DNA of 64,000 nucleotides from Akkermansia muciniphila. GTDB lineage: Bacteria; Verrucomicrobiota; Verrucomicrobiia; Limisphaerales; SXTU01. Under the pieces are notes generated by a model, which did not search any database, was not told where the DNA came from, and saw only the letters and a list, made by a program, of their open reading frames with translations. Shown piece after piece: positions 22,123-61,526 of this stretch; within the stretch, counting starts at the first letter, position 1, and the number at the start of each line of letters is the position of its first letter. The DNA lies in assembly GCA_945874145.1 (NCBI GenBank), contig CAMCFN010000002.1, positions 1 to 64,000 on the forward strand. The letters run 5' to 3'. A program made the translations under genes and the position numbers.

Positions 22123-22150
22123 ATTCTGCGTTCCCTGCTCCAGATTCTGG
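22123..22150. repeat. Degenerate 7-bp-period array (ATTCTGC GTTCCCT GCTCCAG ATTCTGG) between rpoC and rpsL
   Basis: Four consecutive heptamers sharing NYTC positions. Confidence 0.4.
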
Positions 22151-41602: not shown

Positions 41603-44600
41603 ATGTCACCCGCCCGCACACTCTGGATCGTCGTCATGGCCGCCGAGCTTTTGGCGTTCCGAGCATCCGGTGCGGACCCGGCGCGCTTCCGCGAGCACGT
41701 TAAGCCGCTCCTCGACACCAAGTGCGTCTCCTGTCACGGGCCGGACAAGCAGAAGGGCGGCCTCCGCCTCGACTCCCGCGCCGCCGCACTCAAGGGCGGC
41801 GAGCACGGCCCGGCGCTTGTCCCCGGCGACCTCGCGAAGTCGCTTCTGCTGCAAGCCGTCCGCCACGCGAACAAAGACCTCGCGATGCCGCCGAAGGAAA
41901 AGCTCCCAACCAAGGACATCGCCGCGCTCGAAGCCTGGGTGAAGGCTGGTGCGCCCTGGCCCGAGCCCGTGGCCGTGCTCTTCGAGGATGAGGAAGAATT
42001 CCTCGGCGTCCTCACCAGCGGCAACGGCAAAGCCCGGCTCGTGACCGACGACGTGTTTCGCGGCAAGGCCGCACTGGGCATGACACCGCTCCAGCGCGAG
42101 GGCGCGAAGATTCCCGGCTGGAACTTCGAGGTTCGCGAGCAGCCCGCGCCGGGGCAGATGCGTTTCTTGCGGTTCGCGTGGAAGAAGCGCGGCGGTGGCA
42201 GCGTGATGTTCGAGCTGGCCCGCAGCGGCGCGTGGCCCGATGCAAAAGACCCCAAAGGCCGCTACGTAGCCGGCCCGAACACCACCGGATGGGCCGCCAT
42301 CTCCGTCAGTGACGCCGCACCGACGGCGTGGACCGTCGTGACGGTGGACCTCTGGAAGGATCTCGGAAACTGCACGCTCACCGGCCTTGCGCCGACCTGC
42401 GACAAGGGCGAGGAAGCCCTCTTCGACAGCGTCCTCCTCGGCCCGGACGTGGCGAGTCTTGATGCCTACACGCCTGGCCACGGCCAGCTCGCCCTGAAGA
42501 TCGCCGCGCCCGCGAAGCCCCTCGGCGACGCCTGGACCGACCCGGAAAATCCCATCCGCAAAATCTGGCGCGGCGAACGCTTGGACCTGTGGTCGCTGAA
42601 GCAACCAGTGCGGCCGGCGGTGCCGGCGGCAATCGGCAATCCCATCGACCGCTTCCTCCTCGCCAAGCTCACCGAGCAGAAACTCACCTTCTCCCCCGAG
42701 GCCGACCCGCGAACCCTCATCCGCCGCCTCTACTTCGACCTCCTCGGCCTGCCGCCGACACCCGAGGACATTGAAGCGTTCGTCCGCGAGTGTTCCTCAA
42801 TCGGCAATCGGCAATCGGCAATCGAAAATCTGACCGACAAGCTCCTCGCCAGCCCCCGCTACGGCGAGCGCTGGGCCCGCCACTGGCTTGACGTGGTCCG
42901 TTACGCCGACTCGAACGGCCACGAGCGCGACGAGTTCCGCCCGGAGATGTGGCGCTACCGCGATTACGTCGTGCGCTCGCTCAACACCGACAAACCCTAC
43001 GACCAATTCATCCGCGAGCAGCTTGCGGGCGACGAACTGCTCGCCGCCGCCCCGCGCACGCCCGCCGAGGCCGACGCGCTCATCGCCACGGGTTTTCTCC
43101 GGCTGGGCACCTACGACAGCACGGCGAGCATCTTCCAAGAGGACCGCAAGGCGCGGAACGATTTGATGGCCGACCTCGTGAACACGACCGGCAGCGCGTT
43201 CCTCGGCCTGACCTTCTCCTGCTGCAATTGCCACGACCACAAATACGACCCGCTCTCGCAGGCGGACCACTTCCGCTTCCGCGCGTTCTTCGCCGCCGTG
43301 AAGTCGCGCGATGACCAACCCATCGACCTCGCGCCCGAGCAGGACGCCATCCGGGCCCACAACGTTGGCGTGGATAAACAGGTGGCGGTAACGCAACTGG
43401 CCGTGGACGAGGTGCTCGCTCCTGGTCGGCAGAAGCTCCGCGCCGAGCGCATCGCCAAGCTCCCCGCTGACATTCAGGAACTGCTCAAGACCGAGGTAGT
43501 CAAGCGCGACGACGCCACGAAGAAGCAGCTCGAACCGCACTTGGAAAAGGTGAAGGTGAGCGACAAGGACGCCCTCGCCGCGCTCGACGACGTGGGCAAG
43601 AAACGTCACGCGGAGCTGACGGCAAAGATGGACGCGCTCAAGAAACAGAAGCGCACCTTCACCGTCGCGATGGCCGTGAGCGAAGGCAACGCCGAGCCGA
43701 CGAAGCTCTTCTACCAAGGCGACTTCACCGAGCCGCGCGACGAAGTTCAGCCCGGTTTCCTCTCCGTGCTGAACCCGAATCCCGCGCAGGTGAAAGCCCC
43801 GCGTCCCGACACCACGGGCCGCCGCCTCGCGCTGGCCGAGTGGATTGCGTCACCGCAAAACCCCTTCACCGCGCGTGTGCTGGTGAACCGCCTCTGGCAA
43901 CACCACTTCGGCACCGGCCTCTTCGCGAACCCGAACGACCTCGGCTACGCGGGGCCCAAGCCCACGCACCCCGAGCTGCTCGACTGGCTCGCCACGGAAT
44001 TCATCGCGCGCGGCTGGTCGGTGAAGGCGATGCACCGGCTGATGGTGACGAGCCAAGCCTATCGGCAGTGTTCAGTAATCAGTCTTCAGTCCTCAGTCAT
44101 CAGTGGGAAGCCCTCGCCCCCAGCGCGTGGCAGCCAGTCGAAGCCCACTGAAAACTGGACACGGAACACGGAACACTCTCTCGCCCACGCCGCCGACCCC
44201 GACAACCACCTCCTCTGGCGTCAAAACCCGCGTCGCCTCGACGCCGAGACCATGCGCGACACCTTGCTCGCCGTGTCCGGCAAGCTCCGGCCCCACGTCG
44301 GTGGCAAGCCGCTTTGGCCGCCGTTGCCGGAAGAAATCCTCAAGGCCCAGCCCGGCGTGCTCGAAGGGCTGGAAGGCAAGGACAACGGGCGTCGCCAAGG
44401 CTGGTATGCGGACAAGGAGGAGGACTGCGACGTGCGCTCGCTCTACCTAATCCAGAAGCGCTGCGTGCCGCTGCCGTTCCTGCAAGTCTTCGACCTGCCC
44501 GACACCTCGTTCTCCTGCGCCCGCCGCGACGTGACGACCGTCGCCCCGCAGGCGCTGAACCTGTTGAACAGCGACTTCTCGCAGCGTGCCGCGAAGGCCC

Positions 44601-44800
44601 TTGCCGCCCGTGTCGCCAACGAGGCGGCCGACGACAGTGGCAAGCAAATCGAACGCGCTGTCTGGCTCGCCCTCGGCCGCACACCGAGTGCCGCCGAGCG
44701 CCAGCAAGCCGCCGCATTCCTCGCGAAGCACGGCGTGAGCGGCCTGCCGGAGTTCTGCCGCGCGCTGCTGAACGTGAACGAGTTTGTGTATGTGGATTGA
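41603..44800 (+). CDS. PSD1/DUF1549/DUF1553 cytochrome c domain protein
   Basis: CVSCHGPDKQKGGLRLDSRAAALKGGEHGPALVPGD; DUF1549 LTDKLLASPRYGERWARHWLDVVRYADSNG; DUF1553 ARVLVNRLWQHHFGTGLF. Confidence 0.94.
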   Translation: MSPARTLWIVVMAAELLAFRASGADPARFREHVKPLLDTKCVSCHGPDKQKGGLRLDSRAAALKGGEHGPALVPGDLAKSLLLQAVRHANKDLAMPPKEKLPTKDIAALEAWVKAGAPWPEPVAVLFEDEEEFLGVLTSGNGKARLVTDDVFRGKAALGMTPLQREGAKIPGWNFEVREQPAPGQMRFLRFAWKKRGGGSVMFELARSGAWPDAKDPKGRYVAGPNTTGWAAISVSDAAPTAWTVVTVDLWKDLGNCTLTGLAPTCDKGEEALFDSVLLGPDVASLDAYTPGHGQLALKIAAPAKPLGDAWTDPENPIRKIWRGERLDLWSLKQPVRPAVPAAIGNPIDRFLLAKLTEQKLTFSPEADPRTLIRRLYFDLLGLPPTPEDIEAFVRECSSIGNRQSAIENLTDKLLASPRYGERWARHWLDVVRYADSNGHERDEFRPEMWRYRDYVVRSLNTDKPYDQFIREQLAGDELLAAAPRTPAEADALIATGFLRLGTYDSTASIFQEDRKARNDLMADLVNTTGSAFLGLTFSCCNCHDHKYDPLSQADHFRFRAFFAAVKSRDDQPIDLAPEQDAIRAHNVGVDKQVAVTQLAVDEVLAPGRQKLRAERIAKLPADIQELLKTEVVKRDDATKKQLEPHLEKVKVSDKDALAALDDVGKKRHAELTAKMDALKKQKRTFTVAMAVSEGNAEPTKLFYQGDFTEPRDEVQPGFLSVLNPNPAQVKAPRPDTTGRRLALAEWIASPQNPFTARVLVNRLWQHHFGTGLFANPNDLGYAGPKPTHPELLDWLATEFIARGWSVKAMHRLMVTSQAYRQCSVISLQSSVISGKPSPPARGSQSKPTENWTRNTEHSLAHAADPDNHLLWRQNPRRLDAETMRDTLLAVSGKLRPHVGGKPLWPPLPEEILKAQPGVLEGLEGKDNGRRQGWYADKEEDCDVRSLYLIQKRCVPLPFLQVFDLPDTSFSCARRDVTTVAPQALNLLNSDFSQRAAKALAARVANEAADDSGKQIERAVWLALGRTPSAAERQQAAAFLAKHGVSGLPEFCRALLNVNEFVYVD
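42796..42830. repeat. Heptamer array CTCAATC GGCAATC GGCAATC GGCAATC GAAAATC inside PSD1 CDS
   Basis: Five consecutive 7-bp units, encoding SSIGNRQSAIEN. Confidence 0.9.
44066..44107. repeat. Heptamer array CAGTGTT CAGTAAT CAGTCTT CAGTCCT CAGTCAT CAGTGGG inside PSD1 CDS
   Basis: Six consecutive 7-bp units with invariant CAGT. Confidence 0.92.
44147..44177. repeat. Heptamer array ACTGAAA ACTGGAC ACGGAAC ACGGAAC ACT, inverted relative to 44066..44107
   Basis: Four consecutive 7-bp units with AC.G core. Confidence 0.85.
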
Positions 44801-44803
44801 GCC

Positions 44804-46273
44804 ATGAACCCCTTTCCCAACCCCAAGCCGAGTCTGTCTTCCCGCCGGGACTTCATGCTCCGCTGCGGCGGCGGCGCGGGCGCACTCGCGTTGTCCGCGT
44901 TGCTGTCGGATTCCGCCCGCGGCCAGAACTTCACCCAGAACCGGCGCATCGACCTGATGCACCCGCTCACGCCGCGCCAGCCGCACTTCGCAGCGAAGGC
45001 CAAGCGCATCCTGTGGCTCTTCCAATACGGCGCGCCGCCGAGCATGGACTTGTTCGACTACAAGCCCGAGCTGCACAAGCTCCACGGCAAGCCCGTGCCG
45101 GACAGCATCAAAAGCATCAAGGACAAGGTCGGTGGCGTCTTCAACTCGTCGAAGAACGAGCTGACTGCTGGCCCGTGGAAGTGGGCGCAGCACGGTCGCT
45201 GCGGCGCGTGGGTGAGCGACCTGATGCCGCACACCGCGAAGCATGTGGACGACCTTTGCTTCATCAAGTCGCTGCACTGCGAGTCCTCGAACCACGCGCC
45301 CGCGACTTACCAGATGAACACCGGCGTCATCCTCGGCGACCGGCCCAGCGTCGGCTCGTGGCTGACCTACGGCCTCGGCTCGGAGAACCAGAACCTGCCG
45401 GGCTTCGTGGTGCTCTTTCAGGTTGGCGGGTTCGGCGGCACGGCGAACTGGTCCAACGCGTTTCTGCCAGCGGCGTTTCAAGCGACCAAGTTCCGGCACG
45501 AGGGTGAACCGGTCTTCAACCTGAAACCGCCCGCCGAGCTGGCCGGCACGCAGCGCGACACGCTGGATTTGATTCAGGCGTTCAACAAAACGCATCGCGA
45601 CGCGCGGCCCGGATTGCTCGACCTCGACGGGCGCATTGCGAGCTACGAGTTGGCGTATCGGATGCAGTCGGAGGCGCTGGATGTCGGCGACTTGACCGGC
45701 GAAACGGCGGCGACGCTGGAGCTCTACGGCGTGAACGATCCGAAGCGCATCAAGGCGCAATATGGCCGCCAGTGCCTGCTCGCGCGGCGGCTGCTGGAGC
45801 GCGGCGTGCGCGTGGTGCAGGTCTATCAGGGTGTGGACAAATACGGCTGGGACGGCCACGACGACAACAAGGTTTACGCCGAGCGCAACGCGCACCAGAC
45901 CGATCAAGCCACCGCCGCATTGCTCACGGACCTCAAGCAGCGCGGGCTGCTCGACGACACGCTCGTCGTGTGGGCGGGTGAGTTCGGGCGCACGCCCATG
46001 CTGCAAGGCGGCGCGGGCCGCAACCACAACCCCTACGGCTTCACCGGCTGGCTCGCGGGCGGCGGCGTGAAGGGCGGGCAAAGCATCGGCGCGACGGACG
46101 CCATCGGCTTGCGCGCGGAGCAAGACCCGAAGTCCGTGAAAGATTTTCACGCGACGATTCTGCACGCGCTGGGTTTGGCGAACGACGACCTGTTCTTCGA
46201 GCACAACGGCCGCCCCGAGCGCCTCACGGGGGTCGCTGGCACGGCGAAGGTGATCCGTGAGGCGTTTGCCTGA
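44804..46273 (+). CDS. DUF1501 domain protein
   Basis: [85 protein letters not shown]. Confidence 0.94.
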   Translation: MNPFPNPKPSLSSRRDFMLRCGGGAGALALSALLSDSARGQNFTQNRRIDLMHPLTPRQPHFAAKAKRILWLFQYGAPPSMDLFDYKPELHKLHGKPVPDSIKSIKDKVGGVFNSSKNELTAGPWKWAQHGRCGAWVSDLMPHTAKHVDDLCFIKSLHCESSNHAPATYQMNTGVILGDRPSVGSWLTYGLGSENQNLPGFVVLFQVGGFGGTANWSNAFLPAAFQATKFRHEGEPVFNLKPPAELAGTQRDTLDLIQAFNKTHRDARPGLLDLDGRIASYELAYRMQSEALDVGDLTGETAATLELYGVNDPKRIKAQYGRQCLLARRLLERGVRVVQVYQGVDKYGWDGHDDNKVYAERNAHQTDQATAALLTDLKQRGLLDDTLVVWAGEFGRTPMLQGGAGRNHNPYGFTGWLAGGGVKGGQSIGATDAIGLRAEQDPKSVKDFHATILHALGLANDDLFFEHNGRPERLTGVAGTAKVIREAFA

Positions 46274-46346
46274 GCGAGCCTTGGACGCGACAAGCCGGGC
46301 AAAAAGAATTGTCTGGCCGCTGCCATCCAGTAGTGTCCGCGCCTCT

Positions 46347-47681
46347 ATGCGGCAGGTCAATCTGGGCATCATTGGTGGCGGCACCGTCGGCGGCGGCGTG
46401 TTTCAGGCCATCCAGCGGAACGGCGCGTTGATGGCGTCGCGCCTCGGCGTGTCCCTGACGGTCGCGCGCGTCGCCGTGCGCGACTTGAAGAAAGCCCGCG
46501 CGGTCAAAATCCCCGCCGGCCTGCTGACCACCGACTGGCACAGCGTCGTCGCGGACCCCGCAGTGAACCTGGTCGTCGAGCTGATGGGCGGCACCACCAC
46601 CGCGCGCCAAGTCGTGCTCGCGGCGCTCAAGCTCGGCAAACCCGTCGTCACCGCGAACAAGGCGCTGCTGTCTGCGCACGGTGAGGAGTTGTTTGAGGCG
46701 GCGCAGCATTATGGGACAAATCTCTACTACGAGGCGAGTGTCGCGGGTGGCATTCCCATCATCAAGGTGTTGCGCGAGGGACTGATCGGCAATCGCATCA
46801 CGCGGCTCTTCGGCATCGTCAACGGCACCTGCAACTACATCCTCACCCGCATGAAGGACGAGGGTGCGGACTTCGCCGCCATGCTGGCGGAAGCTCAACG
46901 CCTCGGCTATGCGGAAACGCCGCCAGACCTCGACATTGATGGTCACGACGCCGCGCACAAGACCGGCATTCTCGCCAGCCTCGCCCACGGCTTCTGGGTG
47001 AACCCGAATCAGATTTACACCGAGGGCATCCGCAGCATCACGCGGCAGGACATCGAGTTCGCCAGCAAACTGGGCTACACCATCCGGCTGCTCGGCTGTG
47101 TGAAGACGGCGAATGGCGAAGGCATGAAATCCGCCTCCCGCAGTCGCCAGTCCGCAATCCAAGTTTCCGTCTATCCCGCCCTGGTCCCCAACTCGCACGT
47201 CCTCGCCAACGTCAACGGCGTCTTCAACGCCGTTTATGTGCGTGGTGACGTGGTGGGTGACACGCTTTACTACGGACGCGGTGCCGGCCAGGACGCGACG
47301 GCCAGTGCGGTTTTGAGTGACTTGGCCGACGCCGCGCTCGACCTGAAATGCGGCACCAAGAACCGCATCCCGCCCTTCATCCCGCATGAACGCGACGGCG
47401 CGGTGCTGCCGATGGACGACGTGGTGTCGCGCTACTACGTGCGGCTGACGGTCGAGGATCGGCCCGGCGTGTTCGCCAAAATCGCCGGCATCCTGGCGAA
47501 GGCGAAGATTGGCATTTCCTCCATCATCCAGCCCGAGGGCCATGATGGCGTGACGGTGCCGGTCATCCTCATGATTCACGACGCGCCCAACGCCGCGATG
47601 CGCAAAGCCCTCGCTGCCGTCGCGAAACTGCCGGTCGTCAAGTCCGCGCCCGTGATGATTCGGGTGGAAAGTTTCGAGTAA
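46347..47681 (+). CDS. hom: Homoserine dehydrogenase with C-terminal ACT domain
   Basis: NLGIIGGGTVGGGVFQAI; EASVAGGIPIIKVLREGL; FGIVNGTCNYIL; C-terminal RLTVEDRPGVFAKIAGILAKAKIGISSIIQPE. Confidence 0.97.
   Translation: MRQVNLGIIGGGTVGGGVFQAIQRNGALMASRLGVSLTVARVAVRDLKKARAVKIPAGLLTTDWHSVVADPAVNLVVELMGGTTTARQVVLAALKLGKPVVTANKALLSAHGEELFEAAQHYGTNLYYEASVAGGIPIIKVLREGLIGNRITRLFGIVNGTCNYILTRMKDEGADFAAMLAEAQRLGYAETPPDLDIDGHDAAHKTGILASLAHGFWVNPNQIYTEGIRSITRQDIEFASKLGYTIRLLGCVKTANGEGMKSASRSRQSAIQVSVYPALVPNSHVLANVNGVFNAVYVRGDVVGDTLYYGRGAGQDATASAVLSDLADAALDLKCGTKNRIPPFIPHERDGAVLPMDDVVSRYYVRLTVEDRPGVFAKIAGILAKAKIGISSIIQPEGHDGVTVPVILMIHDAPNAAMRKALAAVAKLPVVKSAPVMIRVESFE
47132..47159. repeat. Heptamer array CGCCTCC CGCAGTC GCCAGTC CGCAATC inside hom
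   Basis: 7-bp period, encodes ASRSRQSAI. Confidence 0.7.
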
Positions 47682-47682
47682 G

Positions 47683-49038
47683 ATGAGCCCGCTCCTTTTT
47701 CGCTCCACCAACGGCCAGTCTCCCGCCGTCAACCTCCGCGACGCCTTCCTCGCCGGTCAGGCCCCCGACCGCGGCCTGTATCTGCCCGAGCGCTTCCCCC
47801 ACATCACGCCGGCGGAAATCGCCGAGTTTGCCGAGCTGCCGTATCGGCAGGTCGCCTTCCGCGTGCTGCGGAAGTTCACCGAGGGAGTCATCCCGGACGA
47901 CGCACTCGCTGCGATGTGCAACACGGCCTACGACTTCGGCGTTCCGCTTGAAGTCATCCAGCGCGGGGTGTATCTCATGCGGCTCGATCAAGGTCCGACC
48001 GCATCGTTCAAGGACTTCGCCGCTCAGATGATGGCGCAGATGTTCGGGCGCTTCCTGAACGAAGTCGGAGGGCAAGTCACCATCCTCACCGCCACCAGCG
48101 GTGACACCGGGGCGGCCGTGGCGCATGCGTTTCACGAAGTGCCCGGCGTCCGTGTCATCGTGCTTTTCCCTATCGCCGAAGTGAGCGAGAGCCAGCGCAA
48201 GCTCATGACCACGCTGCGCGAGAACATCCGCACTGTGGCTGTGGACGGGAAGTTCGATGACTGCCAGGCGATGGTGAAGCGTGCCTTCGCCGACCCCGCG
48301 CTGGAACACATCCACCTTTCCTCCGCCAACTCGATCAACATCGGCCGGCTCCTCCCGCAGAGCGTGTATTACTTCTACGCCGCTTCGCGCCTCGCTTGGC
48401 CCGGCCAGCCGATGGTCTTCAGCATCCCGAGCGGCAATTTCGGCGACATGATGGGCGCGGTTGTCGCGCGCGAGATGGGCCTGCCCGTGCGGAAAATCAT
48501 CGCCTCGGTCAACGACAACGACGCCTTCCCGCGCTATCTCCAGAGCGGCATTTACGAGAAGGTCTCCCCCTCGCGCAACTCCGTCTCCAACGCGATGAAC
48601 GTCGGCCACCCGAGCAACCTCGCGCGGCTCGTCGCGGTCTATGGCGGACACATGGACGAGACTGGGAAAGTCCACCGCCAGCCCGACCTCGCCGCGATGC
48701 GCCGCGACCTCTTCTCCACCTCCATCAACGACGAGCGCACCCGCACGTCGCTCCGCGAGTTCTGGAACAAGTATCAAATCCTCCTCGAACCCCACGGCGT
48801 CGTGGCGTGGCAGGGCTTCCTCGATTGGTGCGCCGTCGAGCCGCTGGGCAACACCCCCGCCGTCATTGTCGAGACCGCCAACCCGGCGAAGTTCCCCGAG
48901 GAAGTCGAGAAGGTCGTCGGCTGGGCACCCGACGTGCCCGCCGCCATGACCGCCGGCCTGCAACTGCCCGAGAATTACGATCGCATGGGTGCGGACTATG
49001 AATCGTTCCGCAGCTACCTCCTCAAGGCGCACGCCTAG
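47683..49038 (+). CDS. thrC: Threonine synthase
   Basis: RLDQGPTASFKDFAAQMM, TATSGDTGAAVAHAF, SIPSGNFGDMMGAVVAREMGLP. Confidence 0.97.
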   Translation: MSPLLFRSTNGQSPAVNLRDAFLAGQAPDRGLYLPERFPHITPAEIAEFAELPYRQVAFRVLRKFTEGVIPDDALAAMCNTAYDFGVPLEVIQRGVYLMRLDQGPTASFKDFAAQMMAQMFGRFLNEVGGQVTILTATSGDTGAAVAHAFHEVPGVRVIVLFPIAEVSESQRKLMTTLRENIRTVAVDGKFDDCQAMVKRAFADPALEHIHLSSANSINIGRLLPQSVYYFYAASRLAWPGQPMVFSIPSGNFGDMMGAVVAREMGLPVRKIIASVNDNDAFPRYLQSGIYEKVSPSRNSVSNAMNVGHPSNLARLVAVYGGHMDETGKVHRQPDLAAMRRDLFSTSINDERTRTSLREFWNKYQILLEPHGVVAWQGFLDWCAVEPLGNTPAVIVETANPAKFPEEVEKVVGWAPDVPAAMTAGLQLPENYDRMGADYESFRSYLLKAHA

Positions 49039-49103
49039 ATTACGGTTGCACGCCAATTCTCGAAGCTAGCCGGTTGATTTCTCCCGAGCGCTACGTTGCC
49101 CGC

Positions 49104-49229
49104 CTTCTCCCTTTGCGGAGCGAGGGGGGCTGGCCGCAGGCCGGAGGAGGGGTGCAGCCACCAACGCCGCCGCACGTCATCCCCTCACCCTGGCCCTGTC
49201 CCCTCATCCGATGAAGGGAGAGGGAGAAG
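49104..49229. repeat. GC-rich intergenic element with terminal inverted repeats (CTTCTCCCT...AGGGAGAAG)
   Basis: Lies between convergent thrC and DUF1501 genes; contains CCCCTCACCCTGGCCCTGTCCCCTCATCCGATGAAGGGAGAGGG. Confidence 0.5.
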
Positions 49230-49251
49230 AAGCGCGGGACTCCGAACTGGC

Positions 49252-50724: not shown

Positions 50725-50788
50725 GGGGATGTGATTATTGGTCAAGCAAGGATGTGACTCGCCAAAGTGAAACTCTCAAAAGTGGTGC

Positions 50789-51169
50789 TCATGTCTCAAA
50801 GACAATTTTCCCCGCCTCGAAACGCGGCGGGTGCGAACCGGAAACTTCCAGCGCATCCCACGTAGCCAAGCAAGCGGCCGCAGCGACGGCGTCCTCGCTT
50901 GTATCAACGAGCGTGCCGAGGATTTTGGTCACTCGCAAACTAATGCCGCTCGTCGGCATTGGAACAGCATGTGTCAGCGCATACCTGACTCCACGTTTGG
51001 CGGCGGCTACCCACTCGGGGTAATACTTAATGTCTTCCTGAGGCTCAAATGCCGTAGCCGAAATTGAAATCTCCTGACCGCTTGGCGCAGACGATGGTTC
51101 GATTCCAACCTCAGCAAAGAAAAGCTTACCACCGGTCGAGCGGAGCAATTTGTGGCAGGCTGCTTTCAC
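50789..51169 (-). CDS. Small hypothetical protein
   Basis: 126-aa ORF with a balanced composition between paired PSD1/DUF1501 genes; faint resemblance to EF-G domain IV not verified. Confidence 0.5.
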   Translation of the reverse strand: MKAACHKLLRSTGGKLFFAEVGIEPSSAPSGQEISISATAFEPQEDIKYYPEWVAAAKRGVRYALTHAVPMPTSGISLRVTKILGTLVDTSEDAVAAAACLATWDALEVSGSHPPRFEAGKIVFET

Positions 51170-51220
51170 AAGCTTATACGCAAATCAGCGGAAGCGAGGA
51201 GATTCGCGCGATGGGATGAC

Positions 51221-51441
51221 AACGGAAACGCCAACGGCGTTCCGGCCTCTAGCCCAAGGTTGCCGGAGGCTACCTTGGGTCACGGTGGCAGAAGCAGAGA
51301 CAACCCCAACGGGGTTGCGGCCCGGGCACCACACGCGTCTGCCACAACCCCGTTGGGGTTGCGGGCCATCGGACGCGGTCACCCAAGGTAGGCGCTGCGC
51401 GCCAACCTTGGGCTGGAGGACGGAATCCCGTTGGGATTCGC
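51221..51441. repeat. Symmetrical nested-palindrome element (A-B-C-C'-B'-A')
   Basis: GGAAACGCCAACGGCGTTCC; AGCCCAAGGTTGCCGGAGGCTACCTTGGGT with inverse ACCCAAGGTAGGCGCTGCGCGCCAACCTTGGGCT; CAACCCCAACGGGGTTG and CAACCCCGTTGGGGTTG; GAATCCCGTTGGGATTC. Confidence 0.8.
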
Positions 51442-51452
51442 CCGCCGTCAAA

Positions 51453-51483
51453 ACTGAATACTGAACACTGTTCACTGAATACT
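51453..51483. repeat. Heptamer array ACTGAAT ACTGAAC ACTGTTC ACTGAAT ACT
   Basis: Four consecutive 7-bp units with invariant ACTG, directly after the palindromic element. Confidence 0.9.
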
Positions 51484-51486
51484 TCC

Positions 51487-54400: not shown

Positions 54401-54579
54401 CGGAGCTTGCCCTTGCGGGCCTTCTCGTCCGGCCCGTGGCAGGCATAGCAGTTGTCGGAAAGAATCGGGCGGATGTCCCGGTTGAAATCAATCTTGCGCG
54501 TCGCGGCGCTGGCGGGAGCGGACGCGGAGAGCCAAAGCGCGAAGGCAAAGCTGCCGCAAGCCATCTGTTTGAGAGTCAT
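51487..54579 (-). CDS. PSD1/DUF1549/DUF1553 cytochrome c domain protein
   Basis: CYACHGPDEKARKGKLRLDVAESAL; LKSPHYGEHMGRHWLDAARYGDTHG; SRVAVNRFWQQLFGTGLV. Confidence 0.94.
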   Translation of the reverse strand: MTLKQMACGSFAFALWLSASAPASAATRKIDFNRDIRPILSDNCYACHGPDEKARKGKLRLDVAESALAKHAVAPRDLKKSELWSRVTTKDANDLMPPAESNKKPLKPEQIALLKQWIEEGANYQGHWSFIAPAKPKAPSSGNPLDAFIAAKLAEKKLTPNPEASREVLIRRVTFDLTGLPPTVAEVNSFLADTSVNAYEKVVDRLLKSPHYGEHMGRHWLDAARYGDTHGMHLDNERSMWPYRDWVVRAFNRNLPFDQFTIEQLAGDLLPSPTQDQLIATGFNRCNVTTGEGGSINEEWIFRYAVDRTETAASVWMGLTAGCAVCHDHKYDPITAKDFYSLYAFFHSNADPAMDGNVLLTAPTLKLTTPAQQKKLDDFNAQIAAVDKRIKAELAKVNYTDPSTLNPPPPLKKFDTVWVDDEFPSGAKVEASGSGTTAKWVTEKDGKVLSGKRALKRTDPGVGQDFFSDLKTPFTIPPNGKVFLNVFLDPQDPPKSVMLQFNTGDWSHRAVWGDLDAINFGQRNTNERKRLGDLPKLGEWVKLEFAASQLGFKAGDKIKGLAFTLFRGTVTWDKAGITGESNPSKDPNESLAVWLKENQGKVLTTVPDDVKRLFRSVKPEDRKPEETKRLHEYYFEFVCNSTRPAFAKVHAEKDPIAKARDDFDKAIPATFIWKDLEKPRDSFVMLRGQYNKPGQQVWPNVPAVLPPLPKSGTTNRLDFAKWLVSPQHPLTSRVAVNRFWQQLFGTGLVKSSSDFGAQGEAPSHPELLDWLAVTFREQGWDMKQFVKLLVTSATYRQDSKATPQKIAADPENRFYSRGPRFRLDAEQVRDNALAVSGLLVPTLGGKGVRTYQPDNIWEPVAYSGSNTKTYKRDDGDALWRRSLYTFIKRTAPAPSMTTFDAPSREQSCARRERSNTPLQALVLMNDVQHFEAARAFAQRMLKEGGSHVEARLAYGFRLATARPPTKAETAVLSDTLFTQWAKYQGRTDAAKKAITFGESKPDASLDPSELAAYTMVANLILNLDEVVTKN

Positions 54580-54648
54580 AAGCAGAGTCTTCGACTGGCC
54601 GGGGAAAAAGGCCATTCAGAAAGTGGGCGTGAGCCGCCTTGGCCCGGA

Positions 54649-54739
54649 CCGGCGATTTGCACTCGCCACCCGCTGTTTGCGAAAGGGCGAAGTCGCTCCC
54701 AGCGGTCAACCCGGAGCACGGCGACTGCAAGTCGCCGGA
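54649..54739. repeat. Palindrome-rich intergenic element (CCGGCGATTTGCACTCGCC / GGCGACTGCAAGTCGCCGG)
   Basis: Inverted arms between rfaE2 stop and PSD1 start. Confidence 0.55.
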
Positions 54740-54743
54740 ACCT

Positions 54744-55229
54744 TCAGCCCTTCGCGAGTTTTGCGATGACGTTGCTCGTCGAGCGGCCCGGCATCCCGGG
54801 GAGGATGGCGACCTTGCCCCCGAAGCCTTCGACAAGCCGACGCTCGGGCTGGTTGATGGTGTCGATGGTGTAATCGCCGCCTTTCGCGTAGATGTCCGGC
54901 TTCACTTCAGCGAGCAGGCGCAGCGCATCGACCTCTTCAAAAAGGCACACGCCGTCCACGGCTGCGAGCGCGGCGATGACGGTGGCGCGGTCGTGCTCGG
55001 GGTTTACGGGCCGGGTCGGGCCTTTCAGCGCGCGGACGGAGGCATCGCTGTTCAGCCCGACCAGCAGCGCGTCGCCCAGCGCCCGCGCCGCGGCGAGGTA
55101 GGTGACGTGTCCGGCGTGCAGAATGTCGAAGCAGCCATTGGTCACGACGAGCCGCTGGCCCGTCGCGCGCATCCGTTCGCGCCACGCGGCGACGCTGGCG
55201 AAAGGGATGACTTTGTCCCGGAAATCCAT
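54744..55229 (-). CDS. rfaE2: D-beta-D-heptose 1-phosphate adenylyltransferase-like (RfaE domain II) nucleotidyltransferase
   Basis: [61 protein letters not shown]. Confidence 0.9.
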
Positions 55230-55350
55230 TGCCTCGGATGCTGCGGGACAGGCTGCGGCTTGGCAAGCGGGCGCGGCGGAGAAGAAACTTGCTGGCCGCG
55301 TTTCGCTGCCGATAAACTGCGCATCGCATTCACAAGCCACCGCCGCTGTC

Positions 55351-55575
55351 ATGCCGGACATCACCAAGACTTTCAAAGCTGTTCACCGCGCCATCAAGGC
55401 GGCGGCGAGCGCGGTGAATCCTGGCGAATATCAGGCAGCGGGAACGCAGGTTCAATGTCCGCATTGCCGGCACCGCGAGTTCAACGAGTCGCCCAATCTC
55501 GGCGGCGGCGTGAACCTCGCCTGCCGGAAGTGCTACTTGGTCCTGTGGTTCGCGCAGAAGCCGAACGCCTTGTGA
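55351..55575 (+). CDS. Small zinc-ribbon protein
   Basis: [26 protein letters not shown]: two CxxC knuckles. Confidence 0.6.
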
Positions 55576-55579
55576 ACGG

Positions 55580-55614
55580 ACTGATTACTGAACACTGAAT
55601 ACTGTTTACTGAGA
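55580..55614. repeat. Heptamer array ACTGATT ACTGAAC ACTGAAT ACTGTTT ACTGAGA
   Basis: Five consecutive 7-bp units with invariant ACTG, filling the gap between two CDSs. Confidence 0.92.
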
Positions 55615-55619
55615 CAAAC

Positions 55620-56885
55620 ATGAACACCGTCAACCAACTCAAAACCATCAAGAAGAACACCGCCGCCAAAGTCGGCGCGGAACTCTCCCGCACTGGCGGC
55701 TTGCTGCGCCTCGCGCCCGCGTGGGTGCCGCGCTCCTTCCTCCAGCCCGGCCTGCGCATCAAGCTTCACCCCGACGACACCTACGCCTATGGCCTGAACC
55801 GCGGCGGCATCGACGAGCGCTGGTTCGCTTCCACCACCGTCACGGCGAATGAAGGCCGCGCGGCGGACGAAGGGTTGAACTACTGCGTGGTGGGCAAGGA
55901 ACGTTTCACGCTCAAGCAGGCGGTGGATGACTGCGGCGCGGACCTTGTCGGCAAATCGATCTGGAAGAAGTATGGCAAGTGGCCGGTCTACTCGAAGTTC
56001 TTCGACAACATGGGACCGATTCCGCATCACATGCACCAGTCGGCGAAGCAGGCCAAGCTCGTCGGTCAGGAAGGCAAGCCGGAGTCGTATTACTTCCCGC
56101 CGCAGCACAACAACGTCGGGAACAACTTCCCCTACACCTTCATGGGCTTCGAGCCGGGCACGACGAAGGCGCAGGTCCGCAAGTGCATTGAGAATTGGAA
56201 CAAGGGCGACAACGGCATCCTCGATCTCTCGAAAGCCTACCGCCTCAAGCCTGGCAGCGGCTGGCTCATCGATCCCTGCATTCTCCACGCGCCCGGTTCG
56301 CTCTGCACTTACGAGCCGCAATGGGGCAGCGACGTCTTCGGCATGTATCAGAACCTCGTCGAAGGCCGCGAAGTGCCGTGGAGCCTGCTCGTGAAGGACA
56401 TGCCCAAGAGCAAGCACCAGGATCTCGACTTCATCGTGGACCAGCTCGACTGGGACAAGAACGTGGACCCGAATTTCAAGGACAACCACTACCTTGAACC
56501 CGTCCCCGTCGCCGACACGCGCAGCGAGGGCTTCGTGGACCGCTGGATCGTCTATGGCAAAGTGGACGGTGAACAGCTCTTCACCGCGAAGGAACTCACC
56601 GTCGAACCCGGCGTCAAAGCCACCATCAAGGACACCGGTGCCTACGGCCTCATCTGCGTGCAGGGCAGCGGCAAGATCAATGGCCTGGCGCTCAACAGCC
56701 CGAAGCTCATTCGCTTCCACGAGCTGACCGAGGACGAATACTTCTGCACCGAAGACGGCGCGAAAGCCGGCGTGACCTTCGAGAACACCAGCGAGACCGA
56801 GCCGCTCGTCTGCCTCCGCTACTTCGGCCCCGAAGTGAACCCGGATGCACCTGAAATGGGCGCGTATCGGAAGAACAAGTTCTAG
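55620..56885 (+). CDS. Cupin/mannose-6-phosphate isomerase-like protein
   Basis: GPIPHHMHQSAKQAKLVG, PGSGWLIDPCILHAPGSLCTYEPQWGSDVF, C-terminal cupin-like GAYGLICVQGSGKING. Confidence 0.65.
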   Translation: MNTVNQLKTIKKNTAAKVGAELSRTGGLLRLAPAWVPRSFLQPGLRIKLHPDDTYAYGLNRGGIDERWFASTTVTANEGRAADEGLNYCVVGKERFTLKQAVDDCGADLVGKSIWKKYGKWPVYSKFFDNMGPIPHHMHQSAKQAKLVGQEGKPESYYFPPQHNNVGNNFPYTFMGFEPGTTKAQVRKCIENWNKGDNGILDLSKAYRLKPGSGWLIDPCILHAPGSLCTYEPQWGSDVFGMYQNLVEGREVPWSLLVKDMPKSKHQDLDFIVDQLDWDKNVDPNFKDNHYLEPVPVADTRSEGFVDRWIVYGKVDGEQLFTAKELTVEPGVKATIKDTGAYGLICVQGSGKINGLALNSPKLIRFHELTEDEYFCTEDGAKAGVTFENTSETEPLVCLRYFGPEVNPDAPEMGAYRKNKF

Positions 56886-57001
56886 CCCAGCCATTGGGGC
56901 GGCGTTTGGAAACCGTGCGGGGCAGCTCGACTGGCCCGCACGGTTTCTCCGTTCAGGGATGCGCTGCTGTGGGGTCAAAGTTTTCCGAGAAAGCATTCGC
57001 C

Positions 57002-57646
57002 ATGTCGCCGAGAGCCAGCGATGCTGTCCAGTCCATGCAAATGCCTGAGACCGCTAGTCCCGACAGCGAAACAACGCCTTCCGCACCGACGCGCAAGGTG
57101 ATCACCGAACCGGACTTCTCCGGCACGCCCACGCCCATCGGGCAGTTGACCGAGCGGGCGGACTTCCCCCAGTGCGCGGTGGGAGTCTATGTCAGCATCC
57201 ACGGCTTTGCGGGCGTGGTGGTGGAAATCGTCAACCAATCGCTCAAGGTCCGTTCGCCCGACGGCATCTCGCAGCGCTTCAATGCTTACCGGCTCAAAAC
57301 GCTCTTTGCGCCGCCAGATCGCACCAAGCCAGACCCGCAAGTGCTGTCGATGGAGCGGCCCAAACCGGTCGCCGAGCGCAAGCCGGCGACCGAGGAGGCT
57401 GAATACACGCCTCCCGCACGGGTTTACATCGCCAATCCGGATTTCTCCGCGCCCGTCCGGGCGATTCGGACCTACGCCAGCCAGCCAGATTTTCCGCAGT
57501 GTGCATACGGCAAGCATGTGGACATTCCTGGTTACGCGGGCGTGGTGGTGGAGATCGTGAAGGGCTCGCTCAAGGTGCAGTCCACGACCGGCACCATCCG
57601 CAGCTACAATGCCGACACCTTGAAGAAGCTCTACGGCCGGCCCTGA
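57002..57646 (+). CDS. Protein with two tandem ~70-aa SH3/KOW-like domains
   Basis: Internal repeat: ITEPDFSGTPTPIGQLTERADFPQCAVGVYVSIHGFAGVVVEIVNQSLKVRSPDG / IANPDFSAPVRAIRTYASQPDFPQCAYGKHVDIPGYAGVVVEIVKGSLKVQSTTG. Confidence 0.7.
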   Translation: MSPRASDAVQSMQMPETASPDSETTPSAPTRKVITEPDFSGTPTPIGQLTERADFPQCAVGVYVSIHGFAGVVVEIVNQSLKVRSPDGISQRFNAYRLKTLFAPPDRTKPDPQVLSMERPKPVAERKPATEEAEYTPPARVYIANPDFSAPVRAIRTYASQPDFPQCAYGKHVDIPGYAGVVVEIVKGSLKVQSTTGTIRSYNADTLKKLYGRP

Positions 57647-57708
57647 GCGGTCGGCGGGACCGTTGGAACGCACTTTCCCTTCGGCGCGTTCCCCGCTATA
57701 CGAGGTCC

Positions 57709-58569
57709 ATGAAACACGCCGTTCATGCCCTCGCCTTGCTCACGCTTTTCATCCTCACCACCTCCGCTGCCGAAGTTGGCACCGGTGCCAGCTTCAAAGG
57801 CCCCACCGGCCTCCAGCTCTACAGCCTCCGCGGCATCGCCACGCAAAACCCACCCAAGGCCCTCAAGCAGGCGGCGGACTTCGGCTTCAAGCTGGTCGAG
57901 ACCGCCGGCACCTACAACCTCCCGCCGGAGAAATTCAAGGCGCTCCTCGCCGAGCACGGCTTGAAGCCCGTCAGCGGCCACTTCCCCTACGACCGCTGGA
58001 AGACCGAGCCGGAGAAGGTGCTCGCCGAGGCCAAGGCCATCGGCCTGCAATACGCCGGCTGCGCGTGGATTTCCCACAAATCGCCCTTCAACGAAGACGC
58101 CGCGCGCGATGCCATCGCCGTCTTCAACCGGGCGGGCGAACTGGGCGCGAAGCAGGGCATCAAGGTCTTCTACCACGCGCATGGCTATGAGTTTCACCCG
58201 CACGGCGACGGCACGCTCATGGACCTGCTCATCAAGGAGACCAACCCCAAGCATGTGACCTTTGAGCTGGACGTGCTGTGGGTGGTCTTCCCCGGCCACG
58301 ACCCGGTGAAGTGGCTCACGAAGTATCCGGGCCGCTGGGAGCTCATGCATCTCAAGGACCTCAAAAAGGGCGTGAAGACCGGCGACCTCTCCGGCAAGAC
58401 GGATGTGACCAACGATGTGCCGCTGGGCACCGGCCAGATGAACTGGCCGGCCATCCTCAAGGCCGCGCAGGCCAGCGGCGTGAAATACTACTTCATCGAG
58501 GACGAGTCCCCGACCGTCGTGGAGCAGATCCCGCAGACCCTGAAGTATCTGGGAGACGTGAAGTTCTGA
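57709..58569 (+). CDS. Secreted sugar phosphate isomerase/epimerase-like TIM barrel
   Basis: Signal peptide; LQLYSLRGIATQNPPKALKQAADFGFKLVETAGTY; TFELDVLWVVFPGHDPVKWLTKYPGRWELMHLKDLKKG. Confidence 0.87.
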   Translation: MKHAVHALALLTLFILTTSAAEVGTGASFKGPTGLQLYSLRGIATQNPPKALKQAADFGFKLVETAGTYNLPPEKFKALLAEHGLKPVSGHFPYDRWKTEPEKVLAEAKAIGLQYAGCAWISHKSPFNEDAARDAIAVFNRAGELGAKQGIKVFYHAHGYEFHPHGDGTLMDLLIKETNPKHVTFELDVLWVVFPGHDPVKWLTKYPGRWELMHLKDLKKGVKTGDLSGKTDVTNDVPLGTGQMNWPAILKAAQASGVKYYFIEDESPTVVEQIPQTLKYLGDVKF

Positions 58570-58627
58570 CCGGCGCGGCGGGAATCCCGCTTGGCGCGCC
58601 GCCCCGACTTGCGCTACGTTATGCCCG

Positions 58628-58864
58628 ATGAAACTCCGCCTCGACCTGCTGGAACACCTGACCGACCAGGACATCATGGAGGAGGTCTTGGCGAACAATC
58701 ACCGTTACAAGCCCGAGCCGCTTTTCTCAAAAACCGGAGTTGGGAGTCTGTCACCGGCTTCAACCGAGGAGCGTGCGAAAGAAGTCGAGCGCAGCACGGC
58801 CAGAATTCAGAGAGCCATGACGCAGTCGCAGCCGACTGGCGAATCAAAGCGCAGCAAGTCCTGA
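58628..58864 (+). CDS. Small hypothetical protein
   Basis: 78-aa ORF MKLRLDLLEHLTDQDIMEEVLANNHRYKPEPLF; overlaps next ORF in another frame. Confidence 0.45.
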   Translation: MKLRLDLLEHLTDQDIMEEVLANNHRYKPEPLFSKTGVGSLSPASTEERAKEVERSTARIQRAMTQSQPTGESKRSKS

Positions 58865-59241
58865 CCCTCGGCGAGACGCTGGATTTCTTGCGGAGTTGCC
58901 ACAAACGGGCACCGTTCCTCTTCTTCAACGGCAATACCTTTGCAGACATTGGCCGGGCGGTGACGGACTACGTCTTTGGTGAGTTGCCGTCGATTCGTCG
59001 CCGCGAACTGACTTCGGCGGTCGCCCACTTCATTTCCGGCGTCCTGGACCGTGGAATCATGGAGCAAATGATGGTGGCGCTCATGCACGAAGCTTCGTTT
59101 CAACCCGGCGACCGCGTGAAGACCCTGCGCGGCTCTGCGCATGGCGTGGTCGTCAGAAACGCGGCGGACGGGCGCATCGTGTGGCGGCTGGACGGCGGTG
59201 GCGAACTGCTGGCACTGCCGGAGGATTTGCTTCCGGACTAG
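58850..59241 (+). CDS. Hypothetical protein (start uncertain)
   Basis: 3' part of ORF 58591..59241, LGETLDFLRSCHKRAPFLFFNGNTFADIGRAVTDYVFGELPSIRRRELTSAVAHFISG; stop just before uvrC. Confidence 0.45.
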
Positions 59242-59243
59242 CC

Positions 59244-60959
59244 ATGCCTGTCACCGACCACATCCGCAGCAAGCTCTCGCAGGTGCCGCACCGGCCGGGC
59301 GTGTATTTGCACAAGGACCGCTTCGGCACGGTGATTTACGTCGGCAAGGCGCGCGACCTTCGCCGCCGCGTCGCCCAGTATTTTCAAACTTCGCGGCGCA
59401 TGGGCTGGGACCTCAAGTTCAACGCCCTCGTCGAGGCCATTCACGACTTCGACTGGCACATGGTGAAGTCCGACGCCGAGGCCGTGCTGCTCGAGGGCAA
59501 GCTCATCAAGGAGTTTCACCCGCGCTACAACGTCTCCTTCCGCGACGACAAGCGCTTCCTGATGCTCAAGGTCAACCTCAACGACCCCATCCCGCGCTTC
59601 ATGCTCACGCGCCTGCGGATTGACGATGGCGCGCGTTACTTCGGCCCTTTCGCCAGCGGGGGCGCGCTGCGGCGGACGCTGAATCTGGTGCGCCACAAGT
59701 TCAACCTCCGCGGCTGCCGTCCGCTGAATCCCGATGCGAGCGATTACAAGCACTGCCTCTACGCGCACATGAAGGTCTGCACCGCGCCGTGCATCGGCAA
59801 CGTCACGCGCGAGCAGTATCTGATGCAGGTCACCGCCGGCTGCGACTTCCTCGACGGCCAGTGCGACGAGATGGCCACCGAACTCGAAGCGCAGATGAAG
59901 AAGGCCGCCGCCGCGCAGGACTTCGAGCAGGCCGCGCAGCTTCGTGACCTGCTTAAGGACATCAAGAGCACCACGCAGAAGACGGAGAAGTTTGAGCGCG
60001 TTCCCTACAAGCTGCCGGTCGCCATCAATCCCGAGTCCGACCTGCGTGAGCTGGCGCGCGTCCTCGGGATGCCGCAGCCGCCGGCGCGGATTGAGGGTTT
60101 CGACATTTCAAACATCAGCGGCACATTCGCCGTCGCGTCGCTCGTGAGCTTCTGGCACGGCCGCCCCGACCGCGCGAACTACCGGCGTTTCAAGATCAAG
60201 ACCGTGACCGGCCAAGACGACTTCGCCTGCATGGCGGAGACGATTCACCGGCGCTACTCGCGGCTGAAGAAGGAAGTGGTGCAGGCCGCTTCTGCATCCG
60301 AACCCGGTTTGGTTGAATCACCGGTTAGCAAAGCGGCTTTCGAGCCTGCCGACGACGGCGAGGAAGCTCCCGAGACTCGCCCCACCTCCGCTTTCGATGC
60401 CATCGTGCATGACGCTGCGAATCGCGACGAGCTGACCGCGCCGTGGGTGCCGAAAGTTCCTTCGGCGGTCCGGTTGCCGGACCTTATCCTCATTGATGGC
60501 GGGCGCGGCCAGCTTAACGCCGCCTGCGCCGAACTGGCCAAGCTCGGCCTCGGCCACATCGCCATCATCGGCCTCGCCAAGGAGTTCGAGGAAATCTACC
60601 AGCCCGGCGAAGCTGCGCCGTTGCGGCTTGGCCTCGACCACCCGGCGGTGAAACTCCTCCAGCGCGTGCGCGACGAGTCGCATCGGGTGGCCAACAGCTA
60701 CAACGCCCAGTTGCGCCTGCGGAAGATTTCCGAAAGCGTCCTAGATGAGTTCCCGGGTGTGGGCGATGCGCGGAAACAGGTGCTGCTGAAAAAATTTGGC
60801 TCCATCCACCGTCTCCGCCTTGCGACCGTCGAGCAAATCGCCGAAGTCCCCGGCTTCGGCGGCAAGCACGCGCAGGAGCTGAAGGACTTTCTCGAAACCC
60901 GCCGGGAGCGGTCGGCTACGGTTGCTGGGGGAAAGTCGGACAGCGCAGCGTCTGGTTGA
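59244..60959 (+). CDS. uvrC: Excinuclease ABC subunit C
   Basis: GIY-YIG VPHRPGVYLHKDRFGTVIYVGKARDLRRRVAQYF; EGFDISNISGTFAVASLVSFWHGRPDRANYRRFKIKTV; LPDLILIDGGRGQLNAA; C-terminal HhH. Confidence 0.97.
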   Translation: MPVTDHIRSKLSQVPHRPGVYLHKDRFGTVIYVGKARDLRRRVAQYFQTSRRMGWDLKFNALVEAIHDFDWHMVKSDAEAVLLEGKLIKEFHPRYNVSFRDDKRFLMLKVNLNDPIPRFMLTRLRIDDGARYFGPFASGGALRRTLNLVRHKFNLRGCRPLNPDASDYKHCLYAHMKVCTAPCIGNVTREQYLMQVTAGCDFLDGQCDEMATELEAQMKKAAAAQDFEQAAQLRDLLKDIKSTTQKTEKFERVPYKLPVAINPESDLRELARVLGMPQPPARIEGFDISNISGTFAVASLVSFWHGRPDRANYRRFKIKTVTGQDDFACMAETIHRRYSRLKKEVVQAASASEPGLVESPVSKAAFEPADDGEEAPETRPTSAFDAIVHDAANRDELTAPWVPKVPSAVRLPDLILIDGGRGQLNAACAELAKLGLGHIAIIGLAKEFEEIYQPGEAAPLRLGLDHPAVKLLQRVRDESHRVANSYNAQLRLRKISESVLDEFPGVGDARKQVLLKKFGSIHRLRLATVEQIAEVPGFGGKHAQELKDFLETRRERSATVAGGKSDSAASG

Positions 60960-61031
60960 AGCTCTGGCCTTGGAACTTTAGCCCAGAGCGCGCAGCCTTG
61001 CGTCCGCCTGCCCACTGGGGCGAATGAACTT

Positions 61032-61442
61032 GTGAACCACGAACTCCTCGAACTGCCCGGTCTCCGGGTGACATTGGACCGGCTGGTCTATGCGCCGGAG
61101 CTGCCCAGCCCGCCGACCCAGCCGCATTCGTTTGTCTATTTCATCAGCATTCACAACGACTCGGACCGGGCCGTCACCATCAAGGGCCGCAAATGGGTGG
61201 TCACGAACGCGCAGGACGAGGTGACCGTGGTTGAGGGAGACGGCGTGGTGGGGGAGTTTCCTCGAATCATCCCCGGTGAGAAATTCAGCTACAACAGCCG
61301 CCATGTGCTGGACACCCGCCAGGCCATCGCCGAGGGCAGCTATCTGGGCGTGGATGACGAGGGGCGGCGCGTAGTGGTGCGCATTCCGACGTTTGAGATG
61401 ATCGTGCCGGAGGGCAGGGGACCGAAGGAGACGTGGGCGTGA
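61032..61442 (+). CDS. apaG: ApaG domain protein
   Basis: HSFVYFISIHNDSDRAVTIKGRKWVVTNAQDEVTVVEGDGVVGEFPRIIPGEKFSYNS. Confidence 0.88.
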   Translation: MNHELLELPGLRVTLDRLVYAPELPSPPTQPHSFVYFISIHNDSDRAVTIKGRKWVVTNAQDEVTVVEGDGVVGEFPRIIPGEKFSYNSRHVLDTRQAIAEGSYLGVDDEGRRVVVRIPTFEMIVPEGRGPKETWA

Positions 61443-61465
61443 GAAAAGCCGAAGCGGCCGGCTTT

Positions 61466-61500
61466 GAGTGTTCAAAGTCGAGCGTTGGGCGTTGAACGTT
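61466..61500. repeat. Heptamer array GAGTGTT CAAAGTC GAGCGTT GGGCGTT GAACGTT
   Basis: Five consecutive 7-bp units between apaG and MBL hydrolase gene. Confidence 0.75.
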
Positions 61501-61526
61501 TTTTCAGCTCTCCCTACCGTCACTCC

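Follow-up and report, generated by a model that had tools for sequence, protein, structure and literature searches.

What are the short tandem arrays of strict 7-bp period that are scattered over the first 64,000 bases of contig CAMCFN010000002.1 (C2 here) of the Akkermansia muciniphila assembly GCA_945874145.1, and what placed them both in operon junctions and in protein genes? This stretch, which we call the window, belongs to a 4.58-Mb draft genome of 157 contigs that is ~82% complete, and most of the genomes compared with it are likewise drafts. The DUF1549/DUF1553 and DUF1501 genes in the window would suit a member of Verrucomicrobiota or a near relative. We think it probable that the arrays form the inverted ends of very small insertion elements related to S23/IVP cassettes, in which mirrored heptamer arrays bracket a gene for a four-helix-bundle protein. 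The arrays themselves are real and lie far beyond chance. The window holds 5 period-7 arrays, compared with ~0.1 in third-order Markov controls, and 0 arrays at periods 5, 8, 10, 11 and 13, and the pattern CARTN3CARTN3CART matches 12 times in the window against 0.03 in dinucleotide shuffles and 156 times genome-wide, where the reversed pattern matches 4 times. Our genome-scale period scans covered 457 kb of this genome, in addition to genome-wide pattern searches, and returned 33 arrays at period 7 and 0–3 at each of periods 5, 8, 10, 11 and 13; periods 3, 6 and 9 were raised, as coding sequence predicts, so that period 7 is the sole non-coding period with a clear excess in both the window and the 457 kb. 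The excess of 7-bp phase over shuffled sequence and other periods, for which a first-pass annotation of the window had proposed a check, is therefore confirmed, and the arrays that it placed at 42796, 44066, 44147, 51453 and 55580 are solid. That at 47132 is short, at ~3 units, although a mirrored partner lies 17 bp upstream of it; that at 61466 is weak (7-bp self-match 0.51), and the putative array at 22123 is not periodic (7-bp self-match 0.42).

The same annotation had stated that both orientations occur, which is true, but had missed that opposite orientations form mirrored pairs, the arrays at 44066 and 44147 being the two arms of one element. The left arm, (CAGTNNT)5, spans 44066..44104 on the plus strand, in frame within a DUF1549/DUF1553-type gene (open reading frame, ORF, 41603–44800), and has an inverted partner matching at 16/21 positions at a distance of 41 bp. 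Its centre (44105..44146, no strand assigned) is unconserved, as judged from the context and from relatives, and is followed by the right arm (44147..44178, minus strand), which on direct reading runs ACTGAAA ACTGGAC ACGGAAC ACGGAAC ACT, with two units deviating from ACTGANN such that an in-frame TGA is avoided. Most arrays, read in their context, share this architecture, which consists of (CAGTNNT)n, a centre of ~20–60 bp and then (ANNACTG)n. Across 1.07 Mb from the same order, partners within 100 bp were inverted in 45 cases and direct in 1. A CAGT arm was succeeded by an ACTG arm in 30 pairs versus 4 in the opposite order; 26 of the 30 were spaced only 16–61 bp apart, whereas all 4 reverse-order successions lay at >650 bp. 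In 246 CAGTNNT elements the CAGT and the following pyrimidine are fixed and two positions are free, and the centres of short elements are mutually unrelated and lack conserved sequence, for which reason we rejected a conserved element core. The same genome shows equal architecture with other 7-bp units (GTGACNN, CAACGNN such as CAACGTT, and CATTCGC), as well as related palindromes built of 8–11-bp units. Free-standing arrays without a mirrored partner, a trait of STRR and LSSR repeats, are mostly not what we find, although some solo arrays remain.

The junction at 51453 shows what can lie between such arms. In the window, an insert at 50727..51486 (no strand assigned) separates a DUF1549-type gene (stop 51487) from a DUF1501 gene (start ~50726), and it retains one CAGTNNT arm (51453..51483, minus strand; ACTGANN on the plus strand) that adjoins the DUF1549 stop codon, together with a distinct 126-aa ORF as its cargo (50789..51169, minus strand), which by inspection is unrelated to the genes at that site in relatives. 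Genomes of the same genus align to the window region at 84–95%, and their orthologous pairs as compared here are not mutually independent. In G008 the junction is empty (stop codon, 4 bp, ATG), whereas in G001 it contains a four-helix-bundle S23 gene (PF05635) between CAGTNNT arms, one of which has the orientation and position of the window's surviving arm. G002 carries a cassette orthologous to that of G001 (93% protein identity, homologous flank), G006 a different gene between TGATTAG arms, G004 and G010 150-bp nested palindromes of 8- and 10/11-bp units, and G003 and G007 a shared membrane-protein gene with an arm in G007 only. In G027, from another family of the same order, a four-helix-bundle gene again lies between CAGTNNT arms. 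A second junction contains S23 cassettes in five genomes, gene-less palindromes of 102–103 bp in two and a cassette with a GxxExxY gene in one.

Other window sites are re-used in relatives as well. At the 44066 site, three relatives have mirrored arrays built on a different unit (GAGRGTC/GACCCTC or GAGGGTG/CACCCTC); at the 55580 site, G005 and G003 carry a CTTGAAC/CTGAAAC array in the slot; and at the ~47130 site, G004 has a full inverted pair, GAATGGC / GCAATTC. Orthologous sites within the genus are therefore empty, differently arrayed or occupied by whole arm-bracketed genes, as seen in the presence/absence comparison of relatives that the first-pass annotation had called for. Its broader suggestion, that repeats of one fixed unit length propagate, is supported in part: the period is specific to 7, and close relatives either have a given locus or lack it. 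The arrays are, however, not free-standing tandem repeats but form the inverted termini of small elements in strict orientation. From these comparisons we infer that the elements are mobile.

The cassette protein belongs to PF05635/TIGR02436 (E 1e-27), is distantly related to the solved chains 2gsc and 2rld, and matches the Avd model of diversity-generating retroelements at E 1.7e-10, far below the Avd curated cut-off. We collected PF05635 domains from genomes of the order and from 43 genomes across many phyla, for which the presence of paired CAGTNNT arrays was the sole selection criterion, counted distinct domains for which both flanks were available, and called a domain bracketed when its flanks matched as inverted repeats at 17/21 or better. 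Inverted arrays bracketed 89 of 101 domains (61/71 in the order, 28/30 in other phyla), compared with 9/400 random windows, 0/30 adjacent windows in the same loci and 0/30 like-sized PIN-domain genes. The best arm period among the 89 was 7 in 71, so that tandem heptamers adjoin the S23 gene in these cassettes as they do in the 23S rRNA intervening sequence (IVS) of Coxiella, and 8 in 14; arm-to-arm length ranged from 416 to 741 bp (median 479). PF05635 was encoded in 40 of the 43 genomes chosen for paired CAGTNNT arrays and in 0 of 14 control genomes. Arm units vary by cassette (AGCGGTC, GTTGAGA, AGTCCAA, GAGGGTC, CAGTNNT), and unit sequence tracks protein identity (Mantel r 0.31, permutation sd 0.036). 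Alike cassettes also occur in unrelated flanks, both for L386 versus L389/L390 (84–86% protein identity, arms 20/21) and, in different phyla, for L434 versus L437 (76% protein identity, arms 20/21). The first-pass annotation had called for a search for a co-occurring nuclease, recombinase or polymerase gene; the gene sought is most probably the S23/IVP four-helix-bundle gene between the arms, which is not an obvious member of any of these classes. Sequence comparison favours a reading of the arrays in the window as S23/IVS-type cassettes that lack the gene or have decayed.

How the arrays themselves grow bears on a rival explanation. Period 14 is enriched. Units two apart are more alike than neighbours, which suggests that arrays grow by duplication in 14-bp steps. 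Local slippage, combined with quasi-palindrome (template-switch) mutation, might build arrays in unselected sequence in which S23 genes are merely located, and the enrichment of period 14 and lag-2 unit identity, the identical units within solo arrays and the occupation of tolerant slots and intergenic gaps would all agree with it, as would the statement, attributed to Mrazek 2007 in PMC4679880, that in many genomes no long simple repeat is more common than the heptamer. We nevertheless regard slippage as an unlikely origin, as it leaves unexplained one CAGTNNT unit in >10 phyla, the strict orientation of the arms, the matching of unit sequence across a 300-bp gene, the specificity for PF05635 over PIN genes and the same-armed cassettes in unrelated flanks. 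In addition, the NN positions of mirrored arms are not copies of each other; because they are unmirrored beyond composition, hairpin copying between arms was rejected.

Elements of this kind are not confined to the order. The paired CAGTNNT pattern, with a chance expectation that we estimate at ~1e-4, is present in at least 118 genome stretches from >10 phyla and additionally in 83 viral stretches. Viral contigs IMGVR_UViG_3300025409_000011 (L309, L281, L311, L334) and 3300038427_000181 (L322) contain about ten CAGTNNT palindromes. On them, nearly every gap between co-directional genes has one palindrome, which lies 0–17 bp from the neighbouring start and stop codons; the elements of one virus occupy almost the entire gap. 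Such placement would fit elements kept at operon junctions for a function, be it as stems for RNA processing, as translational insulators or as terminators, with arm recombination shuffling the cassettes and mobility being incidental. Consistent with this, 3 of 4 tested elements fold as RNA far better than shuffles (z −4.3 to −7.0), their terminal inverted repeats being capable of forming a stem as in S23/IVS elements; ACTGANN arrays hold TGA in every frame; and in Beggiatoaceae TAACTGA arrays lie upstream of start codons (PMC4679880). However, the same junction is empty or otherwise filled in close relatives, stops are absent from many unit sequences, some copies lie in frame inside genes and the NN positions do not covary, making maintenance by function quite improbable as the primary explanation.

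Two further candidates for the driver of mobility can be weighed against gene content. Movement of REPIN-like elements by RAYT (Y1) transposases would fit palindromic, dispersed elements in operon junctions, and Y1_Tnp is found in 8 of 11 genus genomes, with heptamer arrays near some copies. On the other hand, this genome (G000), G003 and G009 have 0 Y1_Tnp matches despite many arrays, although these genomes are incomplete; most Y1 loci are without arrays; and the arms are tandem units with no conserved REP. We rejected a RAYT/Y1 transposase on its absence from this genome and the two array-bearing relatives, and consider such a driver very improbable. Equally hard to credit is a telomerase-like reverse transcriptase of the DRT10 type that would add templated heptamers at breaks and capture filler DNA between them. 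DRT10 synthesizes 9-nt tandem repeats from an A-B-A′ template whose A is 4 nt long (PMC12632851), the CAGT core is likewise 4 nt, and extension of break ends would yield mirrored arms, but RVT_1 is found in just 1 of 11 genus genomes, the ground on which we rejected this mechanism, and not in G000; moreover, a single array contains two to three variable positions, and the S23 gene would be left unexplained.

For the S23/IVP-related insertion elements, we propose a scheme in which a full element of ~420–740 bp comprises an arm of 7-bp (sometimes 8-bp) units, an S23/IVP gene (PF05635/TIGR02436) and the reverse-complement array. Gene-less copies consist of two arms with a short stretch between them, and an arm on its own would be a decayed copy, the window holding such reduced forms. 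Elements sit at operon junctions, immediately next to the stop or start codon, and in tolerant gene loops; one site is refilled repeatedly by different elements, and every cassette lineage has its own unit sequence that travels with the gene. The comparisons show the mirrored tandem arms, elements that are present or absent as wholes at operon junctions, forms with and without a gene, joint inheritance of unit sequence and protein, and a wide occurrence in bacteria and viral contigs. Beyond this, the S23 protein, a probable relative of Avd and of the protein that 23S rRNA IVSs encode, may recognize the arm repeats, either as DNA or as an RNA stem, and may act in trans on gene-less copies, with DNA cutting and joining possibly being a host function. 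RNase III might trim the arm stem, as it does in rRNA IVSs, and thereby render operon insertion nearly harmless, and array length and sequence would drift by slippage in 7- and 14-bp steps.

Several observations weigh against this scheme. There are 0 PF05635 matches in the window's genome, at 82% completeness, so the window copies would have to be relics or rely on a missed gene, and their assignment rests on the unit, the architecture and the site that they share with relatives. Within the order, the association of CAGTNNT arrays with PF05635 presence is borderline (27/30 vs 19/28, Fisher p = 0.053), as would be expected if unit sequences differ, which is not proof; a copy-number correlation between S23 genes and CAGTNNT arrays was discarded as a line of evidence on this basis. 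The 676 kb of array-bearing viral loci yielded no S23 gene; no target-site duplication, the mark of a classical miniature inverted-repeat element of a DDE transposon, could be seen at the two inspected junctions, where the compared relatives are not near-identical strains, and no catalytic protein was identified for element movement. The NN positions of the two arms show no covariation beyond composition (0.474 vs 0.485), leaving a precise RNA-stem constraint unsupported. The arm-similarity test used for bracketing in part selects what it measures, and the tendency of both arms to change together at orthologous sites (19.4/21 within vs 16.9/21 between) is partly biased because cassettes were chosen for matching arms. 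Finally, the cross-phylum loci come from metagenome-assembled genomes (MAGs) that may be mis-binned. RFSE01 ("Proteobacteria bacterium WB4_2_1501", L442 / G089) is a case in point: its label or bin is probably wrong, since its coordinates are identical to those of the same-genus G004.

The remaining arrays of the window include reduced and solitary forms. A single arm, ACTGATT ACTGAAC ACTGAAT ACTGTTT ACTGAG, lies at 55580..55612 on the minus strand, with an ATG (55620) 7 bp downstream. In the linker of a homoserine dehydrogenase-like gene, a short left arm found by inspection (GGCGAATGGCGAAGG, 47108..47122, plus strand) and a short right arm (CGCAGTCGCCAGTCCGCAATCC, 47139..47160, plus strand; the array listed at 47132) look like a degraded pair. 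The (CAATCGG)4 array at 42796..42833 (plus strand) is in frame and partnerless, and G001 and G003 are 15 bp shorter at this site. The genome has eight similar (CAATCGG)n loci; recurring solo arrays without a mirrored partner lie at G000:C4:34396, C6:39405, C6:75145, C11:75598, C12:57655 and C19:39476, and the repeat lies in frame in DUF1549-type genes, where it is read as IGNRQSA, and in relatives within homoserine dehydrogenase. Plain slippage, or survival of a lone arm, may account for some solo arrays, among them (CAATCGG)n in genes for DUF1549 proteins and homoserine dehydrogenase. The weak array at 61466..61501 (CGTTGRR units, no strand assigned) occupies a variable intergenic gap, where the alignment of relatives breaks off at ~61442 and restarts at ~61482. 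Further palindromes were also encountered: several GC-rich ones (AACCCCAACGGGGTTG, AACGCCGTTGGCGTT, AATCCCAACGGGATT) are crowded at 51190–51450 within the junction insert, and at the 44066 site G001 (L060) has a 27-bp near-perfect palindrome (TAGCAGCCGACGTGAGGAGGCTC...) instead of heptamer arms, parts of which stand beside arrays in L106 and L121 and mark another palindromic element family. A ~130-bp repeat on many G004 contigs (L398:453-583) is apparently a separate family resembling miniature inverted-repeat transposable elements.

The S23 cassettes have a counterpart. Genes of the GxxExxY type (PF13366/TIGR04256; PDDEXK_3) are bracketed by mirrored arrays at 25 of 30 loci, compared with 0 of 38 control windows, and their arm units measure 8–11 bp; examples of these arms are CACAGAGA, CACGGATTT, CGCGGATGA and CGCTAATCT (L456-L485; L448, at G001:C169; L474; L482). 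GxxExxY is a second cassette family, sister to the S23 kind, with its own gene-less palindromes; the Pfam name implies a nuclease fold of the PD-(D/E)XK type, which gives another way into the mechanism. A wider generalization, which we hold tentatively and find close to evenly balanced, would be that S23 and GxxExxY cassettes are pan-bacterial minimal mobile elements (<1 kb, tandem-array termini, without a recognized transposase) that move by protein guidance of an undescribed kind, and that STRR, TAACTGA and other bacterial and phage heptamers are their gene-less descendants. Several unexplained heptamer-repeat families would thereby be tied to one kind of element, giving one explanation for repeats noted since 1990 in cyanobacteria, giant sulphur bacteria and genome surveys, and S23/IVP (TIGR02436), which has many copies per genome and no known function, would gain a testable role. 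If true, this would also account for odd in-frame inserts in MAG proteins, turn rRNA intervening sequences from an oddity into a general class of mobile element, and pose the problem of what moves an element of 450 bp that has no transposase.

Among known systems, the parallel with STRR repeats drawn in the first-pass annotation is borne out as one of kinship, both having a strict, dispersed 7-bp tandem unit in excess over other periods. The STRR heptamers of cyanobacteria, said to have been described by Mazel in 1990, reportedly have a CARTNNN core, and the small dispersed repeats of Nostoc, reportedly described by Elhai in 2008, are said to be embedded in heptamers. Both have been described as tandem repeats and not as arms of gene cassettes; in some cyanobacteria, our check covered paired arrays only. 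REPINs resemble the window elements in being small, palindromic, non-autonomous and dispersed, but differ in arm structure, and no RAYT was found in this genome. Avd, whose model the cassette protein matches, belongs to diversity-generating retroelements, but no reverse transcriptase was found in 10 of 11 genus genomes. TAACTGA direct repeats have been reported from Beggiatoaceae, Cyanobacteria and Bacteroidetes as possible translational signals (MacGregor 2015, PMC4679880). They are likewise ACTGA-containing heptamers in gaps near start codons, with mixed heptamers and a patchy distribution across phyla, but those in the Beggiatoaceae genome are nearly all direct and unpaired (169 sets, one inverted).

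A further likeness is to the 23S rRNA intervening sequences that encode an S23 protein, Leptospira being another example besides Coxiella. We found no paper joining heptamer arrays with S23/IVS in the open literature, with subscription papers and preprints largely outside the coverage. The Coxiella burnetii 23S IVS is 428 nt long, contains an S23 ORF, has terminal inverted repeats and is excised by RNase III; three tandem heptamers, in numbers that differ among strains, precede the ORF (PMC4990558), which provides independent support for the link between heptamers and S23. Like the cassettes, it combines a length of ~430 bp, an S23 ORF, an inverted-repeat stem, variable heptamers by the ORF and a sporadic distribution without a transposase. 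The window's genome has 0 PF05635 matches, but relatives' cassettes at the window's own site do encode the S23 protein. Whereas the known 23S IVSs lie in 23S rRNA helices, the cassettes are found across many phyla at operon junctions and inside protein genes; every cassette has an array sequence of its own, and gene-less copies are abundant.

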